From Pseudonocardia pini (GTDB taxonomy: Bacteria; Actinomycetota; Actinomycetes; Mycobacteriales; Pseudonocardiaceae), in contig NZ_JACBXB010000005.1 of the NCBI RefSeq assembly GCF_013870575.1, forward strand, positions 1 through 35,349: a stretch of DNA of 35,349 nucleotides. Reading direction: 5' to 3'. A program made the translations under genes and the position numbers. The stretch's first letter is position 1. Each line of letters starts with the position of its first letter. The notes under the pieces are model-generated. The model had not been told where the DNA came from and searched no databases. It saw only the letters and a program-made list of their open reading frames with translations. Shown one piece after another: positions 7,527 through 35,349 of the stretch.

Positions 7527-8672
7527 TCAGTCGCCCGAGCCGAGCCCGAGGAGCTTGCGCGCGATCATCCACCGGTGGATCTCGCTCGTGCCGTGCCCGA
7601 TCCGCCACACCCGGACCTGCCGGTAGAAGCTCTGGATGGGGAGCTCCCGGCTGTACCCGAGACCGCCGAAGATCTGCAGGCTGCGGTCCGTGACCCGCTG
7701 CGCCATCTCCGTGGCGTACAGCTTGGCGGCGTACGCGGCGTGGTGGATGTCCTCGCCCGCGTCCGCCATCCACGCGGCGCGGTAGACGAGGAGCCGCGCC
7801 GCGTCGAGCTCGACCGCCGAGTCGGCGATCATCCACTGGATGGCCTGTCGCGACGCCAGCGGCTTGCCCCAGGTCCTGCGCTCCTTCGCCCAGTCGACGG
7901 CGAGGTCCAGGCAGCGCTGGGCGATCCCCAGCTGGAAGGCCGCGATCTTCGCCCGGCCGTGGGTCAGCTGGTCGGCGGCGAGCTTCCAGGCTCCGTTGAC
8001 GGGGCCGAGGCGCTGTTCGTCGCCCACCTCGCAGTCCCGGAAGGTGAGCTCGTACGGCTCCCAGGCGTCGCCCATCGTGGGGATGGGCCGCGACACCTCG
8101 AAACCGGCGGTCCCGATGTCGACCAGGAAGCAGGTGATCCCCTTCGCCCCCAGCGCCGGGTCCGTCGTCGCGAACACGATGCAGAAGCCCGCCCGCTCCA
8201 CGTCGGAGATGAAGGTCTTCGTGCCGTTGAGGACCCACCCCTCGCCGCGCCGCACGGCGGTGGTCCGCACCGCGGCGAAGTCTGACCCGGTGTCGGGTTC
8301 GGTGAAGGCGTAGCAGCTGCGCAGGCCCTCCTCGATCGTCGGGTAGAGGTACCGCTTCTTCTGCTCGTCGGTGCACGAGTAGAGGATCGGCTCGGGGGAA
8401 CCGCCGAGCTGCAGCATGGCCGGGTGCTTGAAGAGCTCCTCGGCGACGAGGCACGCACCGAGCGTGCCGACCCCTTGCCCCCCGTACTCCTCGGGCACGT
8501 CGAGCGCCCACAGGCCGTGGCGTCGGGCCTTGTGCTCCAGCTCCGTCCGCAGCTCGGGGGAGAACGCCCCGTCACGCAGGAACTGCTGCTCGAGCGGCAT
8601 GAGCTCCGTCTCGCGGAACCTCCTCGCCGACTCGGTGAGCTGGCGGTACTCGTCGGGGATCGTGAAGTCCAA
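7527..8672 (-). CDS. Acyl-CoA dehydrogenase with atypical active site
   Basis: A 381-residue FAD-dependent acyl-CoA dehydrogenase with the three usual domains and the signature CYAFTEPDTGSDF near residues 120-132. The start is TTG at 8672, preceded by GAGGAG six bases upstream; no ATG gives this N-terminus. It is odd at the catalytic base. The MCAD-type glutamate (in YEGT) aligns with H360 in RIGHGTSEI, and the IVD-type glutamate (in LER) aligns with G239 in THGRAK. It may use another base or act as a reductase, but the alignment was done by eye. It follows the barrel-like gene at 8685 after 12 bases. The role in beta-oxidation-like catabolism is inferred. Confidence 0.87.
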   Translation of the reverse strand: MDFTIPDEYRQLTESARRFRETELMPLEQQFLRDGAFSPELRTELEHKARRHGLWALDVPEEYGGQGVGTLGACLVAEELFKHPAMLQLGGSPEPILYSCTDEQKKRYLYPTIEEGLRSCYAFTEPDTGSDFAAVRTTAVRRGEGWVLNGTKTFISDVERAGFCIVFATTDPALGAKGITCFLVDIGTAGFEVSRPIPTMGDAWEPYELTFRDCEVGDEQRLGPVNGAWKLAADQLTHGRAKIAAFQLGIAQRCLDLAVDWAKERRTWGKPLASRQAIQWMIADSAVELDAARLLVYRAAWMADAGEDIHHAAYAAKLYATEMAQRVTDRSLQIFGGLGYSRELPIQSFYRQVRVWRIGHGTSEIHRWMIARKLLGLGSGD

Positions 8673-8684
8673 TGGGTGCTCCTC

Positions 8685-9500
8685 TCAGGGGGCCGTGTGT
8701 TCCGCGCGTCCGTGGAGCGCGGGGCGGGGGTTCGAGAACGCTCGGGTCCGAGGCTCTCGGTGGGGGTCGCCGCCGCGGGCGGAGACGCCCGCGATGCGGC
8801 GGTAGAGCAGGCGCCACGCGGTCCGCCGCCCGTTCCAGGCGGGCGGGCCCTCCATCTGCATGGCGGGTCGCCCCGCGGGATCGGCCTGGGCCCTGATCAC
8901 CTCTTCGTCGCCCTCGTAGGCGGCGAGGAACCGTGGGCAGCCCGGCTCGGGGTGTCGCCACACCCGGTCGGCCTCCCACCGGACGGCCCGGCGGAACCCC
9001 ATGGCGGCGACGACCTCGGCGAGATGGGTCTCGCGGTAGAAGGCGTTGAAGGCCGCGAGCCCGGCCGTGTCGGTGCCGTCCGGCACGTCCATCCCGACGA
9101 GGAAGAGGTACGGGTCGCCCTCGTCGCCGAGCGTGTGGGTGAAACCGGGGTGGCGGCGCCAGGTCATCTCCCAGCGGGCCTCGGGCACCGACCCGGTCCC
9201 GGCGGCGGTCTCCGCGGCGATCCGCTCGACGAGCGACCGGACCTCCCGGTCACCCGCGACCTCGAACAGCAGGAGCCTGCCGGGGCCGAGGTCCCCGCGC
9301 ACGTCGGGACCCACCAGCCGGTAGGCCGACCCCCGGGTCACTCCCGGGGCCGCGGCGACGACCTCCACCACGGCCCGGGTCAGCCCGTCGGTCCACGGGG
9401 CTTCCTTGCCGGGCTCGCCGGGGCCGTGGTCGAGCCCGACGGCGAGGAGCACGCCCTCGCCCCCGGCGGTGTCCGAGCCGGTACCCGCACGGTCAGGCAC
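8685..9500 (-). CDS. Two-domain EthD-like/dimeric alpha-beta barrel protein
   Basis: A 271-residue protein without a firm family assignment. The second half carries a pattern like EthD or dimeric alpha/beta-barrel proteins: FYRETHLAEV, GFRRAVRWE, then PRFLAAYE. The 203-residue protein at 10454 has the same pattern, so the two are paralogues. The first half (to about residue 110), with GPGRLLLFEV, looks like a second, diverged module. The GTG start at 9500 overlaps the stop of the MBL gene by 8 bases. The C-terminal tail (about 25 residues after RRIAG) is arginine and proline rich and may be disordered. Such small barrel proteins often assist aromatic or polyketide-like oxidation, but no function is assigned. 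Confidence 0.7.
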   Translation of the reverse strand: MPDRAGTGSDTAGGEGVLLAVGLDHGPGEPGKEAPWTDGLTRAVVEVVAAAPGVTRGSAYRLVGPDVRGDLGPGRLLLFEVAGDREVRSLVERIAAETAAGTGSVPEARWEMTWRRHPGFTHTLGDEGDPYLFLVGMDVPDGTDTAGLAAFNAFYRETHLAEVVAAMGFRRAVRWEADRVWRHPEPGCPRFLAAYEGDEEVIRAQADPAGRPAMQMEGPPAWNGRRTAWRLLYRRIAGVSARGGDPHREPRTRAFSNPRPALHGRAEHTAP

Positions 9501-10464
9501 GGGGGACTCCCCCGCGCTTCGCGGAGGCGGGGCGTCGGCTCGCGTCCCCGGGCTCCACCCGACTCCAGGTGACCTCGCCGGTGGCGTCCCGGCCGAGCCT
9601 GCCGAGCGTCAGGATCGGCATGTGGGGTCCGGTCACGATCGCGTCGAGGTCGATGGCCATCTCGGCCAGCGCCCCGCGTGCCTCGATCGAGGCACGCGGG
9701 TCGGCGTCGATCTCCGGCAGCCAGTCGTGGTGGCGGAAGTGGATGGGGTGGTGGGCCAGGTCGCCGACCAGGAGGCAGTCCTCGCCGCGGCTCGTGACCC
9801 GGACGCACGTGTGGCCGGGTGTGTGCCCCGCCATCGGGATGGCGGTGACTCCCGGAGCGATCTCCGCCTCCTCGTCGAAGGTGGTGACGAGACCGGCCTC
9901 GATCACCGGCAGGATGCGGGCCCGGACGTAGGTGCCCATCGGGTCGGTCTCGGAGTCGGGACCCGTCCAGTACGCCAGCTCGGCCGCATGGACGAGGACC
10001 CGGCTACGGGGGAAGGCCAACCGCGCCTGCGCGGTGCCGGCGTCGGTGACCAGTCCCCCACAGTGGTCGTAGTGCATGTGGGTCAACACGATCCGGTCGA
10101 CGTCGTCGGGCCCGATCCCGATCTCCCGCAGGCGGTGCCTCATCTCGTCGCCACCGCGCGACTCGCCGAGGTCGTGGATGCCGGGGCCGAAGCCACAGTC
10201 GACCAGGGTGACCGCTCCGGCGAGCTCGACCACGAACAGACCGAAGTTCACGGGGAACTCGGTGTCCGGATCCGTGATCCCCAACGGGGCGGTCCACAAC
10301 GCCGGGTCGATACCGGTGAACCAGAACCGCCTGCGCCCGAACATGATGCCGTCGGTGATGTGGTGGATGCGGGCATCCCCCACGTCGAAGGAGCCGCTCA
10401 GTGCCTGTTCCGCGAGGTCGCGCGGCACGTCGAGCGGGCTGGGGAAACGGTGCTCACCGGGCAT
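9493..10464 (-). CDS. MBL-fold metallohydrolase
   Basis: A 323-residue metallo-beta-lactamase-fold hydrolase. The motif THMHYDHCGG begins at residue 128 and supplies the H-x-H-x-D-H metal set; AGHTPGH, VGDLAHH and TGPH follow in the expected order. It differs clearly from the AHL-lactonase-like enzyme at 2766, so the operon holds two separate MBL hydrolases. The open frame reaches back to 10641, but the ATG at 10464 starts the family-like N-terminus and lies at the end of the preceding gene, overlapping it by 11 bases. A role in ester, thioester or lactone hydrolysis is plausible. The substrate is unknown. Confidence 0.82.
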   Translation of the reverse strand: MPGEHRFPSPLDVPRDLAEQALSGSFDVGDARIHHITDGIMFGRRRFWFTGIDPALWTAPLGITDPDTEFPVNFGLFVVELAGAVTLVDCGFGPGIHDLGESRGGDEMRHRLREIGIGPDDVDRIVLTHMHYDHCGGLVTDAGTAQARLAFPRSRVLVHAAELAYWTGPDSETDPMGTYVRARILPVIEAGLVTTFDEEAEIAPGVTAIPMAGHTPGHTCVRVTSRGEDCLLVGDLAHHPIHFRHHDWLPEIDADPRASIEARGALAEMAIDLDAIVTGPHMPILTLGRLGRDATGEVTWSRVEPGDASRRPASAKRGGVPRA

Positions 10465-11065
10465 GATGCTCTCCCACGCGTCGGAAGTGGTGCGGCGCCG
10501 TGACGGGCCGCGGAGTGTGTCCGGCCGGGTCCTCGCCGGCCTCGGAGGAGCTCGGTCGCAACGACAGCACACGACCGGGACCCGCACCTGCCAGCTCGGC
10601 GACCACCTCGTAGGTGCGGGCGCCGCGAGGTGCGGTGCCACCGGCCGTCGTGGCGGCCTCGTGGGCCCCGAGGCACAGGTCGGAGGGGAGCGGTCCGGCC
10701 GACGAACCGGGGAGCAGGCGCGCCATCATGCGCCACCGGACCGTCATGAGGCTCCAGTCCACCGGGCCCGGGGTGTAGCGGAACCCGGTCCCCGGGACCT
10801 GCTGGTCGCGCAGGTACCTCTCGGCGGCGGTCGGGTCCTCGATCTCGTAGACGGCGAGCCACCGGGGCCCCGGCACCGACGGCCCGCTCGGCGCCAAGAC
10901 TGGTGTCACGGCCTCGTACCGGGTACCCCGCGCGAACCCGTTCGCGAGGGTCACCTCGGCGAGATGGACGTCGTCGTAGTACCGCGCGAACCCCTCGGTC
11001 TCGCGCTCGGTGAGGCTCTCGCCGGGATCGATCCCCACCATGTAGGCGAACTGCGGCGGGGTCAT
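10454..11065 (-). CDS. Short EthD-like/dimeric alpha-beta barrel protein
   Basis: A 203-residue protein paralogous to the one at 8685. The N-terminal half contains YYDDVHLAEV, GFARGTRYE, PRWLAVYE and a W-rich segment ending WRMMARLLPG, matching the second half of its paralogue. The C-terminal part (about residues 125-170) has ARTYEVVAEL and GPGRVLSL, which resemble the first half of the paralogue, so the module order looks reversed. It then ends in a low-complexity, arginine-rich tail, so the second module may be truncated. The ATG overlaps the stop of the carboxymuconolactone-decarboxylase-like gene as ATGA (11065-11062). No function is assigned. Confidence 0.65.
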   Translation of the reverse strand: MTPPQFAYMVGIDPGESLTERETEGFARYYDDVHLAEVTLANGFARGTRYEAVTPVLAPSGPSVPGPRWLAVYEIEDPTAAERYLRDQQVPGTGFRYTPGPVDWSLMTVRWRMMARLLPGSSAGPLPSDLCLGAHEAATTAGGTAPRGARTYEVVAELAGAGPGRVLSLRPSSSEAGEDPAGHTPRPVTAPHHFRRVGEHHAR

Positions 11066-11673
11066 GTGGGCTCCTCCGACGACCCGACGACCTCGGCCAA
11101 CGCCGTCGCGGCGGGCTGCTCGAGGTCGAGGCGCAGCGCGTTGGCGACGACGGAGACGGTCCAGTACCGACCGATGACCGACAGCAGGTCGACCACCTCG
11201 CCGACGGGCAGCAGGCCCGCCACCCTGTCCCAGGTCTCGTCGGTCAGGTCATGAGCGGCGTGGAGCTCGTCGACGACGTCGAGGACGAGGCGGTCGAGCT
11301 CCGACCAGCCCGGCCCGGCGTCGCCACCGGCGAGAGCCCCGATCTCGGCGTCGGTGAGACCCGCGGAGCGGGCGAAGAGGACGTGCTGGGCGAACTCGTA
11401 CCGGGATCGGCATCTCCACCCGACCCGCAGGATCGCGATCTCCCGCAGCCGAGGGCTCAAGGCGGACCCGCTGAACAGGTACCGCTGGAGCGGCGCCTGG
11501 GCCTCCGCCAGGCCGGGGCTGTGGGCCCAGGTGCGGGAGATGTTCAGCTGCGCCGAGTCCGGCACCGGCCTGCCGGCCGCCTCCCGGCGGCGTCGGTACT
11601 CCTCCCGACCCAGCGGGGCGAGCCGGGGCGCGCCCCGATCGGCGGTCCAGCTCGTCACGATGTCCTGCTGCAT
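11062..11673 (-). CDS. Carboxymuconolactone decarboxylase-like protein
   Basis: A 203-residue protein of the carboxymuconolactone decarboxylase/AhpD-like superfamily. The diagnostic stretch is REIAILRVGWRCRSRYEF followed by AQH near residues 81-103. The C-x3-YE-x2-QH arrangement matches the non-AhpD branch common in actinobacterial degradation clusters; the AhpD C-x2-C pair is absent. The ATG at 11691 is possible, but the ATG at 11673 has a strong GGGGGAGG eight bases upstream and was preferred. It lies 21 bases after the thiolase stop and couples by ATGA to the next gene. Members can decarboxylate gamma-carboxymuconolactone, yet many have no known reaction, so only the fold is claimed. Confidence 0.82.
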   Translation of the reverse strand: MQQDIVTSWTADRGAPRLAPLGREEYRRRREAAGRPVPDSAQLNISRTWAHSPGLAEAQAPLQRYLFSGSALSPRLREIAILRVGWRCRSRYEFAQHVLFARSAGLTDAEIGALAGGDAGPGWSELDRLVLDVVDELHAAHDLTDETWDRVAGLLPVGEVVDLLSVIGRYWTVSVVANALRLDLEQPAATALAEVVGSSEEPT

Positions 11674-11694
11674 GCTCTCTGCCTCCCCCATGGC

Positions 11695-12909: not shown

Positions 12910-14282
12910 GGGGTTGCTCCTCCACTCGACGACGGCCGCGGGGCGAACGTCGCCTCGACGAGGGCGCGCGAGGTGCGCGCCTCGATGCCCAGACACAGGT
13001 CCCGCAGCGCGGCGGCGTCGGCCGGGGACTGTGGCGACTCCGGCTGGAGCCGCTCGAACGCGGCCTCCGCCGCCGCGCGATCCCAGGTCGGGGCATCGAC
13101 GGCCGGGTCGTAGCCCAGCGCGAAGGTCTCCCCCGCCGTGTCGACCTCGAGCCGGACGGCGTCGTCGGGCAGCGTGCCGTCCGAGACGACGTCGATCATG
13201 CCGACGAGGTCCTGCTCTGTCGATGACAGCGGACCGGTCAGGTCCTGCAGGCCGACGCGCCCCCGCGACAGGGCGACGGCGACACAGAACCGGGCGCTCA
13301 TCAGGGCCTCCCCCTTGCCCGCGAACGGCCCCCGGCTGTCGATCCCCGGATAGTGGGCCTGGCTCGGGGGCATCGACAGCCGGACGGCCGTCACCTCGCC
13401 GAGGTCCGCCGTGTGCCTGCGGAGGCGGACGGCCAGTCCCACCGGCGCCTGGTTGAACGCGCACACCGGGTACGCCTTGGGGGTGACCTGCAGGATCATC
13501 CAGTCCCGGCCGAGGTGTCCGGCGGGATCTCCCGCGTCGAGACCGTCGCCGCCGACCGCCCGGTACAGACCGCTGCCGCCTTCGAGCGCGTCGCGCGCCC
13601 CGAGGAGCCCGCGCTCCGCCAGCAGCGCCGCCGTGAGACCGTTGCGGCCCGCGACCCCGGGCTGGTACTGCCACTCCTCGCCACCGGAGACCCAGGTCTG
13701 GTTGACGCCCCCACCGAAGGCGGCGGCGCAGGCCAACGCGTCGGCGACGGAGCTCGGGCTCAGCCCGAGCAGCTTGGCGCAGGCCGCCGCCGCACCGAAC
13801 GCGCCGAAGACGCTGGTCGCCCGGAACCCCCGCGCGGTGGCCGCCGCGGCGGCGGCCCGGCCCACCGCGCTCGCCGCCTCGTACCCCACGACCATCGCCT
13901 CGAGGAGTGCCGTCCCGCTCGCGTCGCGGTGGTCGGCCAGCGCGAGCAGCGCGGGCAGCGTCGTGCAGCCGATGTGGGTCTGGGCGGCGAGCTGGGAGTC
14001 GTCCTGGGTGCGCGCGTGCATCATGGCGGCGTTGGCCAGGACCGCGGCATCGATGGCGGCGGCCGAACCGTCGACGAACAGCCGTGCGGGCCCCGCCGTC
14101 TCGCGGGCCAGCATCAGTGCGGGTTCGTCCGACCGGTAGCCGGCCACCGCGACGCCCATGTTGTGCAGCAGGATCAGCTTGGTCCGCTCCACGACCGCGT
14201 CCGGCACGTCCTCCAGACGGAGATCGGCCGCGAATCCCGCCACCCGCTCCAGGATCGCGTCGCCGGTGCCCACGCCGGTCAT
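12906..14282 (-). CDS. MmgE/PrpD family protein
   Basis: A 458-residue member of the MmgE/PrpD family, which includes 2-methylcitrate dehydratase and cis-aconitate decarboxylase. Recognisable features are the all-helical N-terminal domain (LILLHNMGVAVAGYRSDEP, HARTQDDSQ, HIGCTTLPALLAL) and a C-terminal lid domain with VTPKAYPVCAFNQAP. Length is normal. The family acts on tri- and dicarboxylates, or on related branched acids, by dehydration, decarboxylation or isomerisation. With a TcuA-like flavoprotein and a mesaconyl-type hydratase in the same operon, chemistry on a branched di- or tricarboxylate is an attractive but unproven idea. Both ends overlap neighbours by ATGA. Confidence 0.85.
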   Translation of the reverse strand: MTGVGTGDAILERVAGFAADLRLEDVPDAVVERTKLILLHNMGVAVAGYRSDEPALMLARETAGPARLFVDGSAAAIDAAVLANAAMMHARTQDDSQLAAQTHIGCTTLPALLALADHRDASGTALLEAMVVGYEAASAVGRAAAAAATARGFRATSVFGAFGAAAACAKLLGLSPSSVADALACAAAFGGGVNQTWVSGGEEWQYQPGVAGRNGLTAALLAERGLLGARDALEGGSGLYRAVGGDGLDAGDPAGHLGRDWMILQVTPKAYPVCAFNQAPVGLAVRLRRHTADLGEVTAVRLSMPPSQAHYPGIDSRGPFAGKGEALMSARFCVAVALSRGRVGLQDLTGPLSSTEQDLVGMIDVVSDGTLPDDAVRLEVDTAGETFALGYDPAVDAPTWDRAAAEAAFERLQPESPQSPADAAALRDLCLGIEARTSRALVEATFAPRPSSSGGATP

Positions 14283-14725
14283 CGGAACCGCCCCGCGGAG
14301 GGCAGCTCGACGGTCGCCGCGCCCGGTGCGCAGAGCGTCCCGTCCTGCTTGCGGCCCTCGAGCTCGATCTCGACCACGAGTGCCTCGCCCTCGACACCGA
14401 CGGCGGTCACGGTGCCCGTGCACGTCAGCGTGTCCCCGGGTACCGCGATGGCACGGTTCTGCCACCGGAATCGACGCAGCCGACCGTGCGGCCCCGCCCA
14501 GTTCAGGACGGTCTGGCTCAGGAGTGACCCGTGCAGGTGCGACTGCACCAGGACTCCCGGATAGCCCTCGGACCGCGCATAGCCCTCGTCGTAGTGGATC
14601 CGGTGGGAGTTCCACGTCGCCGCGCTGAAGCGGAAGAGCTGCACCTCGCCTGGGGTGACCACGAGGGGCGGGATCGCGTCGCCCACGGAGACCGGGGCGG
14701 CGCGGACGGTCGCGTCGCCCGTCAT
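14279..14725 (-). CDS. MaoC-like hydratase subunit, HTD2/mesaconyl-C4-CoA type
   Basis: A 148-residue single hot-dog protein. The active-site region reads ATWNSHRIHYDE near residues 35-46. Classic MaoC hydratases have D-x-N-P-x-H here; the N-x-H-R-I-H-Y-D form is typical of HTD2-like and mesaconyl-C4-CoA (3-methylfumaryl-CoA) hydratases. The upstream gene supplies the matching N-terminal, FAS1-like dehydratase domain, so the two proteins likely form one hydratase. The frame extends upstream to 15175, but the ATG at 14725 overlaps the partner's stop as ATGA. It probably adds water to, or removes it from, a branched acyl-CoA. The specific substrate is inference. Confidence 0.82.
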   Translation of the reverse strand: MTGDATVRAAPVSVGDAIPPLVVTPGEVQLFRFSAATWNSHRIHYDEGYARSEGYPGVLVQSHLHGSLLSQTVLNWAGPHGRLRRFRWQNRAIAVPGDTLTCTGTVTAVGVEGEALVVEIELEGRKQDGTLCAPGAATVELPSAGRFR

Positions 14726-15207
14726 CGCGCGATCAGGCTCTCGCGACACGTGACCAGGGGCTGCCCCTGGTCGTCGGAGAACAGGTGCCGGAAGGTGAGG
14801 AGCAGCATCTCGCCCGTGGAGCTGTTCTTCAGCTCGACACTCTCCACCGTGGTCTCCACCGTCACAGCCGTCCCCTCCTCGATCGTCCGGTGGAACTCCA
14901 GGTCCTGTCCGGCGCCCATCAGCCGGAGTCCGGTCAACGGCAGCTCGTCGACGACGGCGGCGGCCGACCCGTCGTCGCGCAGGCCCTCGGTCGGGGGCCC
15001 TCCGGTCCACCCGACGACGGCGGGCACGTGCAGGGGATGAGCCGACACCCGGCCCGTCGCCGACGTCGGCCGTCGGTCCGCTCCCGCGCCCACCGCCGAG
15101 GCGAACCGCTCGATGGCGAGCCGGTCCAGCACCCCGAGCGGTCGGCTGCCGCCGGAGCCGACGAGAGCGCGGCACCTCGTGGCCGCCTCCCGGACGAGAT
15201 CGCTCAC
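14722..15207 (-). CDS. FAS1-like dehydratase-domain hydratase subunit
   Basis: A 161-residue hot-dog protein resembling the N-terminal half of MaoC/HTD2 dehydratases (FAS1-like dehydratase domain). Clues are VLDRLAIERFASAVGAG near residue 26, the VPAVVGW region, and LPLTGLRLMGAGQDLEFH, which matches the substrate-tunnel segment of mesaconyl-C4-CoA hydratases. It lacks the catalytic HxxD-type motif, which sits in the following gene. The GTG start overlaps the acyl-CoA ligase stop as GTGA (15207-15204), and its own stop overlaps the MaoC subunit. Obligate heterodimer formation with that subunit is inferred from coupling and domain logic. Confidence 0.75.
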   Translation of the reverse strand: MSDLVREAATRCRALVGSGGSRPLGVLDRLAIERFASAVGAGADRRPTSATGRVSAHPLHVPAVVGWTGGPPTEGLRDDGSAAAVVDELPLTGLRLMGAGQDLEFHRTIEEGTAVTVETTVESVELKNSSTGEMLLLTFRHLFSDDQGQPLVTCRESLIAR

Positions 15208-16769
15208 GAGGACTCCCCCACCATCCGGCGGAGCGCCTTCTTCTCGATCTTCCCGATGGCCGTCCTGGGCAGCTCGTGCACGATCTGGATCGCGGTCGGG
15301 ATCTTGAAGTCCGCCAGGCGTCCCCGGCAGTGCTCCGTGAGGTCGTCGGTCGACAGGGTGTGCCCGTCGTCGACCATCACGAACGCCATGACCGCCTCGT
15401 CACGGACCGGGTCCGGGACGCCGATCACCGCGGCCTCGGCGACCGCCGGGTGGGTCAGCAGGACCTGCTCGACCTCGACCGCCGCGATGTTCTCCCCCGC
15501 ACGCTTGATCATGTCCTTGCGGCGGCCGCAGAAGTAGAGGTACCCGTCCCGGTCGAGGTACCCGTTGTCGCCGGTGTGGAGCCAGCCGTCGCGGAGGGCC
15601 TCCGCGGTGGCCTGGGGGTCCTTGAAGTAGCCCTTCATGAGCGTGACGCCCGGGGTGCCCGCCACGACGATCTCGCCGATCGTGCCGGTCGGTGCGTCGG
15701 CGCCCTCGTCGTCGACGATCCGGACGGCCCGGTCGTACAGCGGCAGCCCGACCGACGGCCATCGGTCCTCGCCCCGGAGGGGCGCCCGGGTGACGACGCA
15801 CATCGCCTCGGACAGCCCCCACCCGTTCATCAGCCTGAGTCCGAACCGCCGCTCGAACGCCTCCTTCTCCTCGTCGAGCACGTTGATGGCGTAGAAGTTG
15901 ACGCGCAGCGAGTGCGCCCGGTCCTCCTCGTCCGGAGGCTGTGCCAGGAGGGTGCGGACCTGCATCGCGACGAGGTTCGTGCTGGTCGCCCGGTGCTCGC
16001 GCACCTGACGCCAGTAGCGCCTGGCGCTGAAGGACTCGAGGACGATGCACGTCGCTCCGGCGACGAGGGCGGCCATCACCGTGGTGGTCTGGGCGTTGGC
16101 GTGGAACAGGGGCAGCGCGGTGATCAGCCGGTCCTCCGGGCCGAACTCGTAGCTGAAGACCTTCCGGACCCCCGCTCGGATCAGGTTGGCGTGGGTGACC
16201 ATCACCGCCTTCGGGGCCGAGGTCGTGCCCGAGGTGAACAACAGCTCGCACACGGCGTCGCCGTCCAGCGGGACGTCCGGAGCCTCGCCGCCCGCCAGGC
16301 CCAGGCCCTCGACGGTCCGCTCGGCGGCGCGACCGCGCGGGCCGTCGGCCAGGATCCCGAGGACCTCCCCGGAGTCGGCCCGGACGACCTGGTCGAAGAG
16401 CCGCTCGTAGGCCGCGGTGGTCACGTAGGCGACCGCCTCGGAGTGCTGGACCAGGTGGCGCAGCTCCCGCTCGGTGTTGGCGGTGTTCGACGGCACCGCC
16501 ACCGCTCCGATCCACGCCAGCGAGAACCACGACACGAGGAAGTCGGGGCAGTTGGGCAGGTGCAGGACCACGGCGTCGCCCGGTCCGATGCCGAGCCCGC
16601 TGAAGCCCTGAGCGGTGCGGCGGACCAGGTCGACGAACTCGTCGTAGGTGAACGTGGACGTGGTGCCCTGCGCCGACTCGAAGACCAGGAACGTCCGGTC
16701 GCCGTGCCGCTCCTGCTGCGCCGAGAGGAGCTCCCTCAGGGTGCGCGGGCTCGCCCCGTCGCCGCTCAT
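15204..16769 (-). CDS. Acyl-CoA ligase (AMP-binding, CaiC-like)
   Basis: A 521-residue adenylate-forming ligase. The phosphate-binding motif TSGTTSAPK is at residues 179-187, the A5 region is NGWGLSE, A7 contains GRRKDMIKRAGENI, and the C-terminal lysine motif reads RTAIGKIEKK, so both domains are intact. By eye it is nearest the crotonobetaine/carnitine-CoA ligase and medium-chain ligase group. It should activate a carboxylate from the upper pathway to its CoA thioester, using ATP, for the hydratase, dehydrogenase and thiolase encoded with it. The frame is open to 17057; the ATG at 16769 overlaps the E1 dehydrogenase stop as ATGA and sets the start. Confidence 0.88.
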   Translation of the reverse strand: MSGDGASPRTLRELLSAQQERHGDRTFLVFESAQGTTSTFTYDEFVDLVRRTAQGFSGLGIGPGDAVVLHLPNCPDFLVSWFSLAWIGAVAVPSNTANTERELRHLVQHSEAVAYVTTAAYERLFDQVVRADSGEVLGILADGPRGRAAERTVEGLGLAGGEAPDVPLDGDAVCELLFTSGTTSAPKAVMVTHANLIRAGVRKVFSYEFGPEDRLITALPLFHANAQTTTVMAALVAGATCIVLESFSARRYWRQVREHRATSTNLVAMQVRTLLAQPPDEEDRAHSLRVNFYAINVLDEEKEAFERRFGLRLMNGWGLSEAMCVVTRAPLRGEDRWPSVGLPLYDRAVRIVDDEGADAPTGTIGEIVVAGTPGVTLMKGYFKDPQATAEALRDGWLHTGDNGYLDRDGYLYFCGRRKDMIKRAGENIAAVEVEQVLLTHPAVAEAAVIGVPDPVRDEAVMAFVMVDDGHTLSTDDLTEHCRGRLADFKIPTAIQIVHELPRTAIGKIEKKALRRMVGESS

Positions 16770-18769
16770 ACCCGCGCCAGCTTCATCGCGGCCTCGGCGA
16801 TCCGCTCCTCGTCGGGCAACCACTCCTTCTCCAGCACCGGGCTGTACGGGGCCGGGACGGACCGAGCACCCACCCGCATGATCGGTGCGTCGAGGAACCA
16901 GACCCCGTCCTCGGCGATGCGCGCCGCGATCTCGGCGCCCACCCCGAAGTCGCGGTGCGCCTCGTGCACGACGAGCAGCCGGTTCGTCTTGCGGACGGAG
17001 TCCAGCACGGTGGCCACGTCGAGCGGGGCGATGGTGCGCAGGTCGATCACCTCGCACGAGATGCCGTCCGCCTGCAGTCTCTCGGCGACGGCCTCACACG
17101 CCAGAGCGGATCGCGAGTAGGAGACCATGGTGAGGTCGGTGCCCGTCCTGCGGATCGCGGCCTTCCCGATGGGCACGAGATGGTCCGGCTCGCAGCGCGG
17201 CCCCTTCTGGCCGTACAGCAGTCGGTTCTCCACGAACACGACCGGGTTCGGGTCCTGGATCGCGGCCCGGAGCAGTCCGTAGGCGTCGGCGGGGGTGGAG
17301 GGCATGAGGACCGTCAGCCCGGGGATGTGCGCCAGCATGGCCTCGAGGCTCTGCGAGTGCTGGGCACCGGACGACCGACCGGCACCGAACTGCGTCCTGA
17401 TCGTCAGGTTCATCGACGCGCGGCCACCCGTCATGTACGGAAGCTTCGCCGCCTGGTTCATCAGCTGGTCGAGACAGACTCCGATGAAGTCGAAGTACAT
17501 GATCTCCAGGACCGGCTTGAGGCCGGCCATGGCCGCGCCGACGCCGAGCCCGACGATCGCGGTCTCCGAGATCGGGGTGTCCCGGACGCGCTCCGGCCAC
17601 TCCTCCTGCATCCCGCGCATGATGCCGAAGACGTTGCCGCCCTTGCCCACGTCGATGCCGGCGATGAACACGGACTCGTCCGCCTCGATCTCGTGGCGCA
17701 ACGCCGCACCCACCGCCTGGTAGGTCTTCCAGATGCCGTCGCCACGACCGGTGGTGGGCGTGAAGGGCTCGACCTCCGCGGCGGGGGTCGCCGGACGCTC
17801 GACGATCATCCCGACGCCGAGCTCGTCGGGCTTCGGGTGGGGCGCCGCCATCGCCTCCTCGACGGCGCGGTCGAGCAGCTCCTCGACCTCCCGCTCGACC
17901 CTCTCGACCTCGGATCGCACACCGCCGACCTCGAGCTGCCCCCGGGTGACGTCGAGCGGGTCCGCGAAGGTCTGCGAGAAACCCTTGCGGTACAGCTGCG
18001 GATCGCCCTCGTAGTGCCCCTGGACCCGGAGTGTCACCGCCTCGACGAGGCACGGGCCCCTGCCGGCCCGGACGTCGGCGAGCACCTCGACCATGAGCTG
18101 CGACGTGGCCGCGACGTCGTTGCCGTCCACCCGGTGGTAGGCGAGGTCGTAGCCCCTCGCACGCGTCTGCAGGTCGACGGGTTGCTGGTCCGCGGCGGCG
18201 GAGAACTCGGAGAACTGGTTGTTCTCGCAGAACAGGACGAAGGGGAGCTTCCAGAGCGCGGCGAGGTTGGTGGCCTCGTGGAACGCCCCGGTCGAGACGG
18301 CACCGTCGCCCAGGAAGGCCACCGCCACCCCGCTCGTCCGGCGCAGCCGTGCCGCCAGCGCGGCCCCACCCGCGATCGGGATGCCGGCACCCACGATGCC
18401 GTTGGCGCCGAAGATGCCCCGGCTCGGGTCGGCGACGTGCATGGAGCCGCCCCGCCCGCGGCACACTCCCGTCTCGCGCCCCATGAGCTCGGCGAACAGC
18501 TCGCGGGGATCGAGCCCCTTGGCGAGCGCGTGGCCGTGGCCGCGGTGTGTGGACGTGATCACGTCGTCGGTGGAGAGGTGGCGACACGCCCCCACCGCGG
18601 CGGCCTCCTGGCCGATCGCGAGGTGCACGAAACCGGGGATGTGACCGTCGCGGTACAACCGGCCCGCGCGTTCTTCGAACCGTCGGATCGTGTACATCGA
18701 GCGGTACATGTCGAGGAGATCGTCCGCGCCGATCGCGGTCCGACCCACCGTCGCCTCCCCCGCGGTCAC
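16766..18769 (-). CDS. Fused alpha/beta TPP-dependent E1 dehydrogenase
   Basis: A 667-residue fusion of the E1 alpha and beta chains of 2-oxo acid (or acetoin) dehydrogenases. The alpha part carries the thiamine diphosphate motif: GDG at 154-156, ending in NN at 183-184. The beta part starts near residue 345 and includes EIMYFDFIGVCLDQLMNQAAK and the GAQHSQSLE loop. It should decarboxylate a 2-oxo acid, or cleave an acetoin-like hydroxyketone, and pass the acyl group to a lipoyl E2. No E2, E3 or lipoyl domain is encoded in the window, so it must borrow a partner or work differently. The GTG start at 18769 overlaps the SDR stop as GTGA. The open frame further upstream is a shadow of the SDR gene. 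Confidence 0.87.
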   Translation of the reverse strand: MTAGEATVGRTAIGADDLLDMYRSMYTIRRFEERAGRLYRDGHIPGFVHLAIGQEAAAVGACRHLSTDDVITSTHRGHGHALAKGLDPRELFAELMGRETGVCRGRGGSMHVADPSRGIFGANGIVGAGIPIAGGAALAARLRRTSGVAVAFLGDGAVSTGAFHEATNLAALWKLPFVLFCENNQFSEFSAAADQQPVDLQTRARGYDLAYHRVDGNDVAATSQLMVEVLADVRAGRGPCLVEAVTLRVQGHYEGDPQLYRKGFSQTFADPLDVTRGQLEVGGVRSEVERVEREVEELLDRAVEEAMAAPHPKPDELGVGMIVERPATPAAEVEPFTPTTGRGDGIWKTYQAVGAALRHEIEADESVFIAGIDVGKGGNVFGIMRGMQEEWPERVRDTPISETAIVGLGVGAAMAGLKPVLEIMYFDFIGVCLDQLMNQAAKLPYMTGGRASMNLTIRTQFGAGRSSGAQHSQSLEAMLAHIPGLTVLMPSTPADAYGLLRAAIQDPNPVVFVENRLLYGQKGPRCEPDHLVPIGKAAIRRTGTDLTMVSYSRSALACEAVAERLQADGISCEVIDLRTIAPLDVATVLDSVRKTNRLLVVHEAHRDFGVGAEIAARIAEDGVWFLDAPIMRVGARSVPAPYSPVLEKEWLPDEERIAEAAMKLARV

Positions 18770-33374: not shown

Positions 33375-33581
33375 ATGGCAGAGGGCACCGTCAAGTGGTT
33401 CAACAGCGAGAAGGGCTACGGCTTCCTCGCTCCCGACGGTGGTGGAGCGGACGTGTTCGTGCACTACTCCGCTATCCAGGTGAACGGCTACAAGAGCCTC
33501 GACGAGGGACAGCGCGTGTCCTTCGACATCGAGCAGGGCCAGAAGGGCCCGCAGGCCACCGGGGTCACCCCGATCGGCTGA
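33375..33581 (+). CDS. Cold shock protein (CspA family)
   Basis: A 68-residue single cold-shock domain. RNP1 is KGYGFL near residues 13-18 and RNP2 is VFVHYS near residues 28-33; WFNSEKGYG is the family signature. It binds single-stranded RNA and DNA and probably acts as an RNA chaperone. The ATG has GAGGAG seven bases upstream. The long leader suggests post-transcriptional control as in other csp genes. It stands between aceE and a convergent pirin gene. Confidence 0.95.
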
Positions 33582-33695
33582 GCCCACACCTGGGGTCCCG
33601 GGCCACCGGGCCTCCACCACCCACCGGCGCACAACCCGTTCCGCTTGCTGCCTCCTCGTGGTGCGTGTCAGCGAACGATCCGTACGTCGTCGACG

Positions 33696-33729
33696 GCCGG
33701 GGTGACCAGCGGGACCGGGTCACCCCGGC
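33696..33729. terminator. 12-bp hairpin between convergent csp and pirin genes
   Basis: GCCGGGGTGACC (33696-33707) pairs perfectly with GGTCACCCCGGC (33718-33729) around 10 bases. It lies 44 bases beyond the pirin stop on the minus strand and 114 bases beyond the csp stop, so it could terminate both. There is no T tract. Confidence 0.6.
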
Positions 33730-33773
33730 TCTCGATGTCCGGGACTCGGTCGAGGGCACCTCGGCAGGCACGC

Positions 33774-34547
33774 TCACGGCCTGAGGTCGCTGCCCATCGT
33801 CCACACGAGGACCTCGGCACCGCGATCGCCCGCGGTCAGGGTGACCCCCTCGTCGGTCAGCCGCAGCTCGTCGCCCTCGCCCACCTCTCCGGGCGGGACC
33901 GTCGCGCTGCCCGCGGCGAGGTAGACGTGCACGAAGGGTGCGGGCGTCAGCTCCCAGACCGCTGCCGCGGGCAGGCGCGCCGCCCAGAGCGCGGCGTCCG
34001 CCCGGCGAAGCGACAGGGGGCTCGAGACGGACCTCTGCTCTGCCCGCTCCGGTGCGGGTGAGCCCTCGGCTGCCCGCACGGGGGCGGGCAGGGCAAAGGT
34101 GTCGACGGAGGCACCCGCGGCGACCAGGACGGGGCTGCCCGAGGCCAGCTCCTCGGAGAGGTCGCGGGACCGCAGCTCCGGGGGTGCCAGGGCGTCGGGG
34201 ACCAGCCAGGACTGCACGAAACGTGTTCCCACGGCGCTGAGCTCGGCGTGCTCCACGCCCGTGCCCGCGGACAGGACCTGCACCGTCCCGGGGCGCACCG
34301 TCCGGGCGTTGCCCAGCGAGTCGCTGTGCTGGAGCTCCCCCTCCACCACCCACGTGACCAGGTCCGCCTCGTGGTGCGCGTGCCGCGGGTAGCCCGCGCC
34401 GGGGGCGAGCCGCTCCTCGTTGTGCGCCAGCAGGGCGCCGAAGAAGGCGTTCGCCGGGTCGTAGTGCGCGCCGAAGGCGAAGCCGTGCCGGGCCTCGCAG
34501 CCCTCGTGCACGGTCACCGCCCGGTCGATGCCGCGTCTGCGCTCCAC
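33774..34547 (-). CDS. Pirin family protein (cupin)
   Basis: A 257-residue bicupin of the pirin family. The likely metal ligands are H56, H58, H99 and E101, in PRHAHHEADL and GVEHAE, at nearly the same positions as in human pirin. The C-terminal cupin is more diverged. Bacterial pirins have been linked to quercetin dioxygenase activity and to modulation of pyruvate dehydrogenase E1. The latter is interesting with aceE nearby, but it is only context. The start is GTG at 34547, with AGGTGG seven bases upstream. It is divergent from the PucR-like gene, with only 34 bases between the start codons, so their promoters must overlap. Confidence 0.85.
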   Translation of the reverse strand: MERRRGIDRAVTVHEGCEARHGFAFGAHYDPANAFFGALLAHNEERLAPGAGYPRHAHHEADLVTWVVEGELQHSDSLGNARTVRPGTVQVLSAGTGVEHAELSAVGTRFVQSWLVPDALAPPELRSRDLSEELASGSPVLVAAGASVDTFALPAPVRAAEGSPAPERAEQRSVSSPLSLRRADAALWAARLPAAAVWELTPAPFVHVYLAAGSATVPPGEVGEGDELRLTDEGVTLTAGDRGAEVLVWTMGSDLRP

Positions 34548-34581
34548 TGTGACACCACCTCCAGCGTGTCATGCTTCTCCC

Positions 34582-35349
34582 ATGACCCTGTCCGACGTCC
34601 AGGCGGTCTCCGTGGCCACGCTGCGACGCCTGGAACGGGCGACCGGCGACCTCGCGGCCGCCTGCCTGTCGGCCATGGAGGACGGGCAGCCGTGGTTCGC
34701 CCGACTGCCCGCCGACCAGCGCGCCGGGGTCCTTCTCGTCACCCAGACGGGTGTCAGCAACTTCGTGGCCTGGCTCGGTGAGCCCTCGGAGACGATCCGG
34801 CTCACCGCCGAGGCCTTCCGGATCGCGCCGCGCGACCTCGCCCGCAGGCTCTCGCTGCGCCAGACCGTCGACCTCGTGCGGATCGCCACCGAGGTGTTCG
34901 AGGAACGGCTGCCGCCGCTGGCCGCCGACGACGCCGAGTACCGGATCCTCGTCGAGGCCGTGCTGCGGTTCGGGCGCGAGATCGCCTTCGCGGCCGCCAC
35001 CGTCTACGCCAACGCGGCCGAGACCCGCGGAGCGTGGGACGCACGCCAGGAGGCCCTCGTCGTCGACGGCGTGGTGCGCGGCGATGCGGACGACGCGCTG
35101 GTCTCCCGCGCCGCCGCCCTCGGCTGGGACCCCGCCGCGGCCGTACGCGTCATGGTCGGTAGCCCGCCGGAGGACCGCGGGGACGCCGCCGACGCGAACA
35201 CCGTGGACGCCGCCGAGGTCCTCTCCGGCATGCGCAGGCACGCGACCCGGCTCGGCCGCTCCGTGCTCGTCGGCGTGCAGGGCGCGCGCCTCGTCCTGCT
35301 GCTCACCGAGCCCCGCGGCCGGACCGCCCCCGACGAGCGTGCGCCCGCG
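34582..35349 (+). CDS. PucR-like transcriptional regulator, 5' part
   Basis: The ATG at 34582 opens a frame of 256 codons that runs off the right edge without a stop. The visible part is helical and alanine/leucine rich, with PWFARLPADQRAGVLLVTQTG near residue 38, then a segment resembling the middle domain of PucR/CdaR-type regulators. The HTH would lie beyond the window. The position after aceE matches Rv2242 of M. tuberculosis, a PucR-like regulator upstream of fabD; the next gene outside the window is therefore predicted to be fabD. The family call relies on this synteny as much as on sequence. A TTCTCC-type spacer rather than a clear Shine-Dalgarno precedes the ATG. Confidence 0.7.
   Translation, partial: MTLSDVQAVSVATLRRLERATGDLAAACLSAMEDGQPWFARLPADQRAGVLLVTQTGVSNFVAWLGEPSETIRLTAEAFRIAPRDLARRLSLRQTVDLVRIATEVFEERLPPLAADDAEYRILVEAVLRFGREIAFAAATVYANAAETRGAWDARQEALVVDGVVRGDADDALVSRAAALGWDPAAAVRVMVGSPPEDRGDAADANTVDAAEVLSGMRRHATRLGRSVLVGVQGARLVLLLTEPRGRTAPDERAPA

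Follow-up and report, generated by a model that had tools for sequence, protein, structure and literature searches.

Two paralogous proteins of a Pseudonocardia pini operon, probably fused ferredoxin-like barrels with reciprocally decayed halves

In a 35,349-nucleotide stretch of Pseudonocardia pini DNA (contig NZ_JACBXB010000005.1, positions 1 to 35,349; hereafter the window), two paralogous proteins of 271 and 203 residues (P271 and P203) are probably fused barrels with reciprocally decayed halves and probably serve a catabolic operon as isomerases or lyases that use a general base. It is well supported that P271 consists of two ferredoxin-like domains, which arose when a single DUF4286/EthD-like domain was duplicated in tandem, and likewise that P203 descends from the same two-domain subfamily. 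Because the N-copy of P271 has lost the motif His and the C-copy of P203 has apparently shrunk, the likely catalytic motif is retained C-terminally in P271 and N-terminally in P203.

Results

Both proteins are encoded on the minus strand, with the following features.

8685–9500, minus strand: P271 (b-type), GTG start; ORF, profile, model and alignment
9129–9458, minus strand: N-half of P271, residues 15–124, a diverged domain copy with the motif His replaced by Val; profile and model
9270–9287, minus strand: GPGRLL of P271, residues 72–77; profile, model and alignment
8778–9122, minus strand: C-half of P271, residues 127–241, an intact domain; BLASTP, profile, model and alignment
9012–9026, minus strand: HLAEV of P271, residues 159–163, supplying the H-x-x-E of C-half helix 1; candidate general base
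10454–11065, minus strand: P203 (a-type), ATG start, an intact N-terminal domain and a short C-terminal tail
10700–11065, minus strand: intact domain of P203, residues 1–122; 35-sequence profile and model
10952–10966, minus strand: HLAEV of P203, residues 34–38, candidate general base
10457–10699, minus strand: tail of P203, residues 123–203, possibly a helix-less remnant of a second domain
10565–10582, minus strand: GPGRVL of the P203 tail, residues 162–167

The original prediction had placed one series of motifs (HLAEV, GF-R-x2-R-[WY]-E and PR-[WF]-LA-x-YE) in the second half of P271 and the first half of P203, and the motifs were located there. The C-half of P271 carries GFRRAVRWE, HPEPGCPRF and GPPAW..RR..WRLLYRR; GFRRAVRWE (residues 168–176) pairs with GFARGTRYE of P203 (residues 43–51), and PRFLAAYE (residues 189–196) with PRWLAVYE (residues 67–74). 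The similarity of the two stretches is far beyond chance, with residues 131–241 of P271 aligning to residues 6–123 of P203 at 33% identity over 120 columns (BLASTP, E 4e-12). The GPGR word is also present where it had been reported, in the first half of P271 and in the tail of P203, but that it marks a second kind of module was not confirmed: in P271 it stands where strand 3 starts in a further copy of the one domain. According to alignment and model, GPGRLL opens strand 3 of the N-half, and PRFLAAYE occupies strand 3 of the C-half. Taken by itself the word is weak: when the P203 tail was shuffled 2000 times, a shared run of at least six residues (V, I, M and L merged) came up 24 times.

The first half of P271 also aligns weakly to the same stretch of P203 (BLASTP, E 0.024), a first hint that the two apparent modules are one. 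A domain profile built from 35 single-domain relatives, with no window sequence included, matched P271 twice, at residues 45–102 (5.7 bits) and 149–205 (29.9 bits), and matched residues 20–89 of P203 at 39.2 bits. Given alone, residues 1–124 of P271 scored 8.2 bits, the best of their shuffles reaching 2.3 bits (170 of 300 reported). In the AlphaFold monomer model of P271 (pLDDT 70.2), the N-half reads E17–24, H33–49, E54–62, E75–81, H84–100 and E107–116 (E, strand; H, helix), and the C-half E131–137, H145–167, E171–182, E191–197, H199–206 and E226–236; the models of P271 and P203 rest on shallow alignments of 16 and 12 rows, respectively. Profile, model and fold match together place two ferredoxin-like (βαββαβ) units in the single P271 chain. 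The best Foldseek matches of P271 in the PDB are two-domain chains, but loose ones (E about 1e-6, TM 0.40–0.55), and VIA aligned 193–204 residues over both halves with two-domain chains, the Z-scores among the matches listed including 14.6 for SOR 6qo0, 13.9 for 5f9p, 13.9 for 2pgc and 13.6 for 3gn6. The halves of each protein may close into one α+β barrel; both halves of P271 align with fused barrels, in a monomer model of pLDDT 70. The proteins are paralogous, barrel-like and duplication-born members of one operon, as originally proposed, on the evidence of the BLASTP match, the double profile match, the model and the overlapping genes. The permutation or domain exchange proposed with this is not supported, since the halves of P271 that carry GPGR and HLAEV are, by profile and model, copies of one domain.

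Searched singly against Pfam, NCBIfam and the PDB, P271 and P203 gave only chance-level sequence matches; RebB (0.081), MtrR (0.2), titin (0.5) and versatile peroxidase (0.59) were rejected as such. Profile searches of PDB sequences returned nothing convincing, with an 8-row two-domain profile finding no PDB chain at E ≤ 10. For either protein DUF4286 (PF14114) gave no row at E ≤ 1 and EthD (PF07110) no row, the gathering cut-off being reached in neither case. At E ≤ 0.1, PF14114 matched 18 of the 30 members of set A7 (best 5.3e-7), and PF07110 matched nine.

Structure prediction of each protein alone yielded two ferredoxin-like units for P271 and, for the tail of P203, strands of mostly low confidence. 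The intact domain of P203 is modelled as E6–13, H20–40, E44–52, E69–75, H78–88 and E108–117; past residue 122 there are four strands and no helix (E132–136, E151–159, E166–171 and E192–201), at a pLDDT of 39–64 up to residue 190 and 74–82 beyond. The PDB structure matches of this model are weak (best E 0.025). When the tail was scored against the profile of single-domain relatives, 102 of 1000 shuffles did equally well; among the five profiles tried, the numbers were 7 of 1000 against the second domain of the Rhizobium a-type and 8 of 1000 against five C-halves. In a larger set, with six profiles tried, the best result, 34 of 3000 shuffles, came from the four C-copies that are either a-type or unpaired, and all eight C-copies gave 157, the N-copies 308 and the b-type C-copies 1963 of 3000. 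One alignment sets HEAA of the tail against HLAE, which would mean that a His, though not the acid, may survive there. Although no domain profile assigns it securely, the tail is likely a decayed second copy of the domain, as the sequence comparisons suggest, and in the model the C-copy of P203 has shrunk to what are probably strands only.

Relatives were collected from plasmid records and genomes by sequence and profile searches. A first scan of genome contigs found none, and a second found Rhizobium sp. BK313 only. Pairs are present on the Rhizobium jaguaris plasmid pRCCGE525c (L010; 261 and 223 aa, span 4.4 kb), in Rhizobium sp. BK313 (L017; both paralogues within 4.3 kb) and in G1220, a congener of the window genome (L081; 247 and 197 aa, the latter counted from an internal ATG, span 5.9 kb); in L017 and L081 we chose the start codons where a longer ORF existed. 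In G1087 (L082), of the same family as the window genome, only one two-domain protein was found, of 223 aa. With the window, the pair is therefore seen in four of the five subfamily genomes, two of which are Rhizobium. Clear two-copy homologues are the a-type proteins of G1220 and of both Rhizobium genomes and the G1087 protein, and the two-copy layout runs throughout alignment A12, with one copy shortened in the 197-aa protein of G1220. The b-type gene at L081:13636–14229 has an N-half of only about 82 aa that seems to lack helix 1; in this it parallels the tail of P203, where no helix is modelled.

The two-domain subfamily is rare. Matches occurred in 52 of 390 family genomes (own included), and among the loci examined from these (29 besides our own profile-examined, weaker matches left out) the subfamily was present in the window genome, G1220 and G1087. 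Among 394 class genomes, the window genome and nine others matched; judged by match ranges, those nine span one half only, and no further subfamily member was found. The domain itself is common: 246 class genomes were searched and 44 had a match, the window genome counted. As to the single-module versions that the original prediction had thought worth surveying, all 29 further class-genome loci examined among the matches (L022–L050) hold one copy each. Plasmid-borne single-domain relatives are often annotated as DUF4286 family proteins. Locus L003 was set aside as a likely chance match (weak, E 9.9e-4; the long ORFs there resemble a protease and one other protein), and at L007 the match is interrupted by stops.

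Other arrangements of the domain were also observed. L069, L074, L076, L078 and L084 form a further tandem family (about 215–226 aa), and L075 and L077 another (about 240 aa inside 428-aa frames); the representatives L084 and L075 have His in both halves and lie outside the window's clade in the tree. In another family of the phylum, L015:1096–1812 encodes a 238-aa relative whose two domains both have the His; the ORF beside it resembles an amidohydrolase. At L014:1387–2117, a single-domain DUF4286-like gene adjoins, by eye, an EthD-like gene, so that two kinds of small barrel protein are adjacent there.

The tree covers 35 domains, of which the 17 halves from the subfamily (nine N-copies and eight C-copies) form one clade (support 99/98). 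Within it, one branch (81/33; 80% of bootstraps) sets apart all nine N-copies, both window ones included, and another (69/73; 66% of bootstraps) the eight C-copies; the bootstraps had not settled. The N-half of P271, a flagged long branch of unsure placement, joins the N-halves of the Rhizobium 223/225-aa and G1220 197-aa proteins (94/89), which identifies P271 as b-type. The swapped order originally described is not supported: the two-domain homologues hold like copies in tandem, and the N-copies of the window group with N-copies. Most simply, the order of the copies is unchanged between P271 and P203. Each protein seems to have preserved the presumed working half where its paralogue lost it, which makes the modules look swapped, though they are copies of the same domain.

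Two alternatives bear on this descent. A true permutation or exchange, by which the intact domain of P203 would be a C-copy moved to the front, we regard as improbable. In its favour, the best BLAST partner of P203 among the domains compared is the C-half of P271 (1.7e-12, vs 1.4e-9 for R1 N), a C-copy gives its domain the top pairwise identity of the tree set (G1220a_C, 39%), and an AU test leaves P203 N joining the C-copies acceptable (p 0.374). Yet P203 N falls among the N-copies in the tree at the support given above, its nearest rows by path being two N-copies, and P203 lacks HPxPGCPR[FY], which by eye occurs in six of the eight C-copies (shortened in G1220b) and in none of the nine N-copies. 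DxxGxxG, also scored by eye, lies ahead of strand 3 in five of the nine N-copies, P203 not among them, and in none of the eight C-copies; both signatures fit an unchanged order. Moreover, as both halves are the same domain, no module order is required. It is very improbable that P203 was truncated by a sequencing or assembly frameshift and that the true protein has a full second domain. The codon-position signal does weaken past residue 140, with GC3 falling from 0.95 to 0.75–0.80, and the assembly is fragmented (1246 contigs); but when all three frames of the 3' stretch were tested with the domain profile, the other two gave no score and no domain remnant, the end of the ORF overlaps the next gene by 11 nt, leaving little space for a full domain, and the congener's b-type likewise has a shortened inactive half.

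The reading of tandem copies in unchanged order with reciprocal decay can be placed in its gene neighbourhood, which includes the following genes.

11062–11691, minus strand: carboxymuconolactone-decarboxylase-family (CMD) gene, overlapping P203 by 4 nt
9493–10464, minus strand: metallo-beta-lactamase-fold (MBL) hydrolase between P203 and P271, overlapping P203 by 11 nt and P271 by 8 nt
7527–8672, minus strand: acyl-CoA dehydrogenase, 12 nt past P271 if TTG is the start

The best NCBIfam row for the MBL hydrolase is the AidB lactonase, at 106.7 bits far under the cut-off of 360. The cluster also contains thiolase, MmgE/PrpD, FAS1-dehydratase-like, AMP ligase and aldehyde dehydrogenase genes and, further, HIBADH-type, FAD and P450 genes. 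Near the pair lie Amidohydro_2 in G1220, and a dienelactone hydrolase and an alpha/beta hydrolase in BK313; the families of these hydrolases, like the MBL family, include lactonases. No such hydrolase was recognised beside the single G1087 protein among the six L082 genes scanned. Common to the G1220 and BK313 loci are an aldo/keto reductase near the pair, which did not turn up among those window genes that were scanned, and an oligopeptide-type ABC transporter (by eye; SBP_bac_5 in L017). The neighbouring hydrolases suggest a lactone or enone intermediate, and the operon would be a CoA-dependent catabolic one. Elsewhere in the window, a fused alpha/beta E1 of a 2-oxoacid dehydrogenase occupies one ORF (16766–18700) upstream of the AMP ligase, and two adjoining FAS1-dehydratase-region genes (MaoC-like; 14282–15207) possibly encode a heteromeric hydratase. 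A 558-aa minus-strand ORF (33565–35241) has no Pfam match, and the codon positions of the overlapping ORFs 33774–34547 (minus) and 34528–35349 (plus) are more coding-like than its own.

The motif His is present in 34 of the 35 single-domain relatives, followed at +3 by D in 19, E in 13 and Q in two. In the subfamily, the C-halves of the b-type have His in four of four, with an acid at +3 in three and Q in G1220, and all four a-type N-halves carry H-x-x-[DE]. The His column of the four b-type N-halves reads V, E, E and T, the T coming from the half without helix 1; the a-type C-halves have H without the acid in R. jaguaris, S in BK313, H-x-x-E in G1220 and the tail remnant in P203. Both halves of the G1087 protein contain H-x-x-E. 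In the window, an intact H-x-x-[DE] is present only in the C-half of P271 and the N-half of P203. Given that the G1087 protein and the congener's a-type carry H-x-x-E twice and that the a-type C-half of R. jaguaris has a His, reciprocal loss is not universal.

By analogy, the chemistry of P271 and P203 would be general acid-base: in each protein one half would be catalytic, its His acting as a general base polarised by the acid at +3, and the remaining half would merely close the barrel, as in bacterial chalcone isomerase. The pair would then run proton-transfer isomerisation, cyclisation or elimination steps, jointly or in succession, perhaps on lactone or enone intermediates opened by the interposed MBL hydrolase. 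More tentatively, and in our view rather doubtfully, P271 and P203 may form an obligate pair, one hetero-oligomeric isomerase for the MBL hydrolase's substrate to which each contributes the catalytic half that the other lost. Support for a hetero-oligomer comes from the recurrence of the pair in four of the five genomes alone. If true, nature would here offer an example of complementary decay following the duplication of an already duplicated domain.

The same anatomy could instead belong to a cofactor-free oxygenase (anthrone-oxidase or PenE-like) or to a haem protein, which we consider possible, though on the unlikely side. Fold matches listed by VIA include 5f9p and PenE 9kdp (Z 12.1), as well as entries for chlorite dismutase/coproheme decarboxylase at Z of about 10–12; however, a fold match does not give function, the family and PDB searches returned no sequence match to those families, and the motif whose strong conservation we traced is H-x-x-[DE], as in chalcone isomerase. 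It seems unlikely that either protein is devoid of catalysis and serves its paralogue as a partner or regulator. Each window protein does have one degenerate half, and the pair shares one neighbourhood in four of five genomes, but all eight proteins of the four pairs keep an H-x-x-[DE] half (H-x-x-Q in the congener's b-type).

Discussion

The recurring pair with opposite halves retained is new as far as a narrow literature search goes, and the narrowness of that search makes this no proof of absence. DUF4286 stood in no title or abstract among the papers found by full-text literature search, and H-x-x-[DE] now offers a testable candidate catalytic motif for DUF4286-like proteins. With the single-domain DUF4286/EthD proteins, the window proteins share H-x-x-[DE], and their relatives score, mostly weakly, with PF14114 and PF07110; unlike them, P271 and P203 match neither model and form a two-domain subfamily. 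Muconolactone-type isomerases share the fold.

Bacterial chalcone isomerase (CHI; E. ramulus type) also has two ferredoxin-like domains, and the spacing of its His33 and Asp36 equals that of HLAE. An excerpt of PMC9694015 describes a catalytic and a solvent-exposed ferredoxin-like domain, with His33 as general base, hydrogen-bonded via one water to Asp36; His33 appears likewise in an excerpt of PMC8361940. CHI entries occur among the Foldseek matches of P271, loosely (E about 1e-6, TM 0.40–0.46, rmsd 7–8), and are absent among the 50 matches listed by VIA. Unlike the fold, the sequence of CHI has no similarity to the two-domain subfamily in the search with the 8-row profile, and as that search gave no PDB match at E ≤ 10, the comparison is one of fold and spacing.

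Chlorite dismutase, HemQ, DyP, OxdA and HmoB resemble the window proteins in fold, not in sequence, for which there was no match: they too are built of fused ferredoxin-like domains, which in those proteins form one barrel, with the His in one half, and the other half may lose secondary structure. In the part of PMC4835899 consulted, decay of one half after fusion is already described for haem-binding barrels; one half of these tandem-fused ferredoxin barrels keeps the functional His, mostly the C-half, and the N-domain of HmoB has a degraded helix. Whereas these barrels mostly retain the C-half, the co-located pair described here keeps opposite halves, and would allow the passage from symmetric two-site barrels to one-site enzymes to be compared in both directions within one operon.
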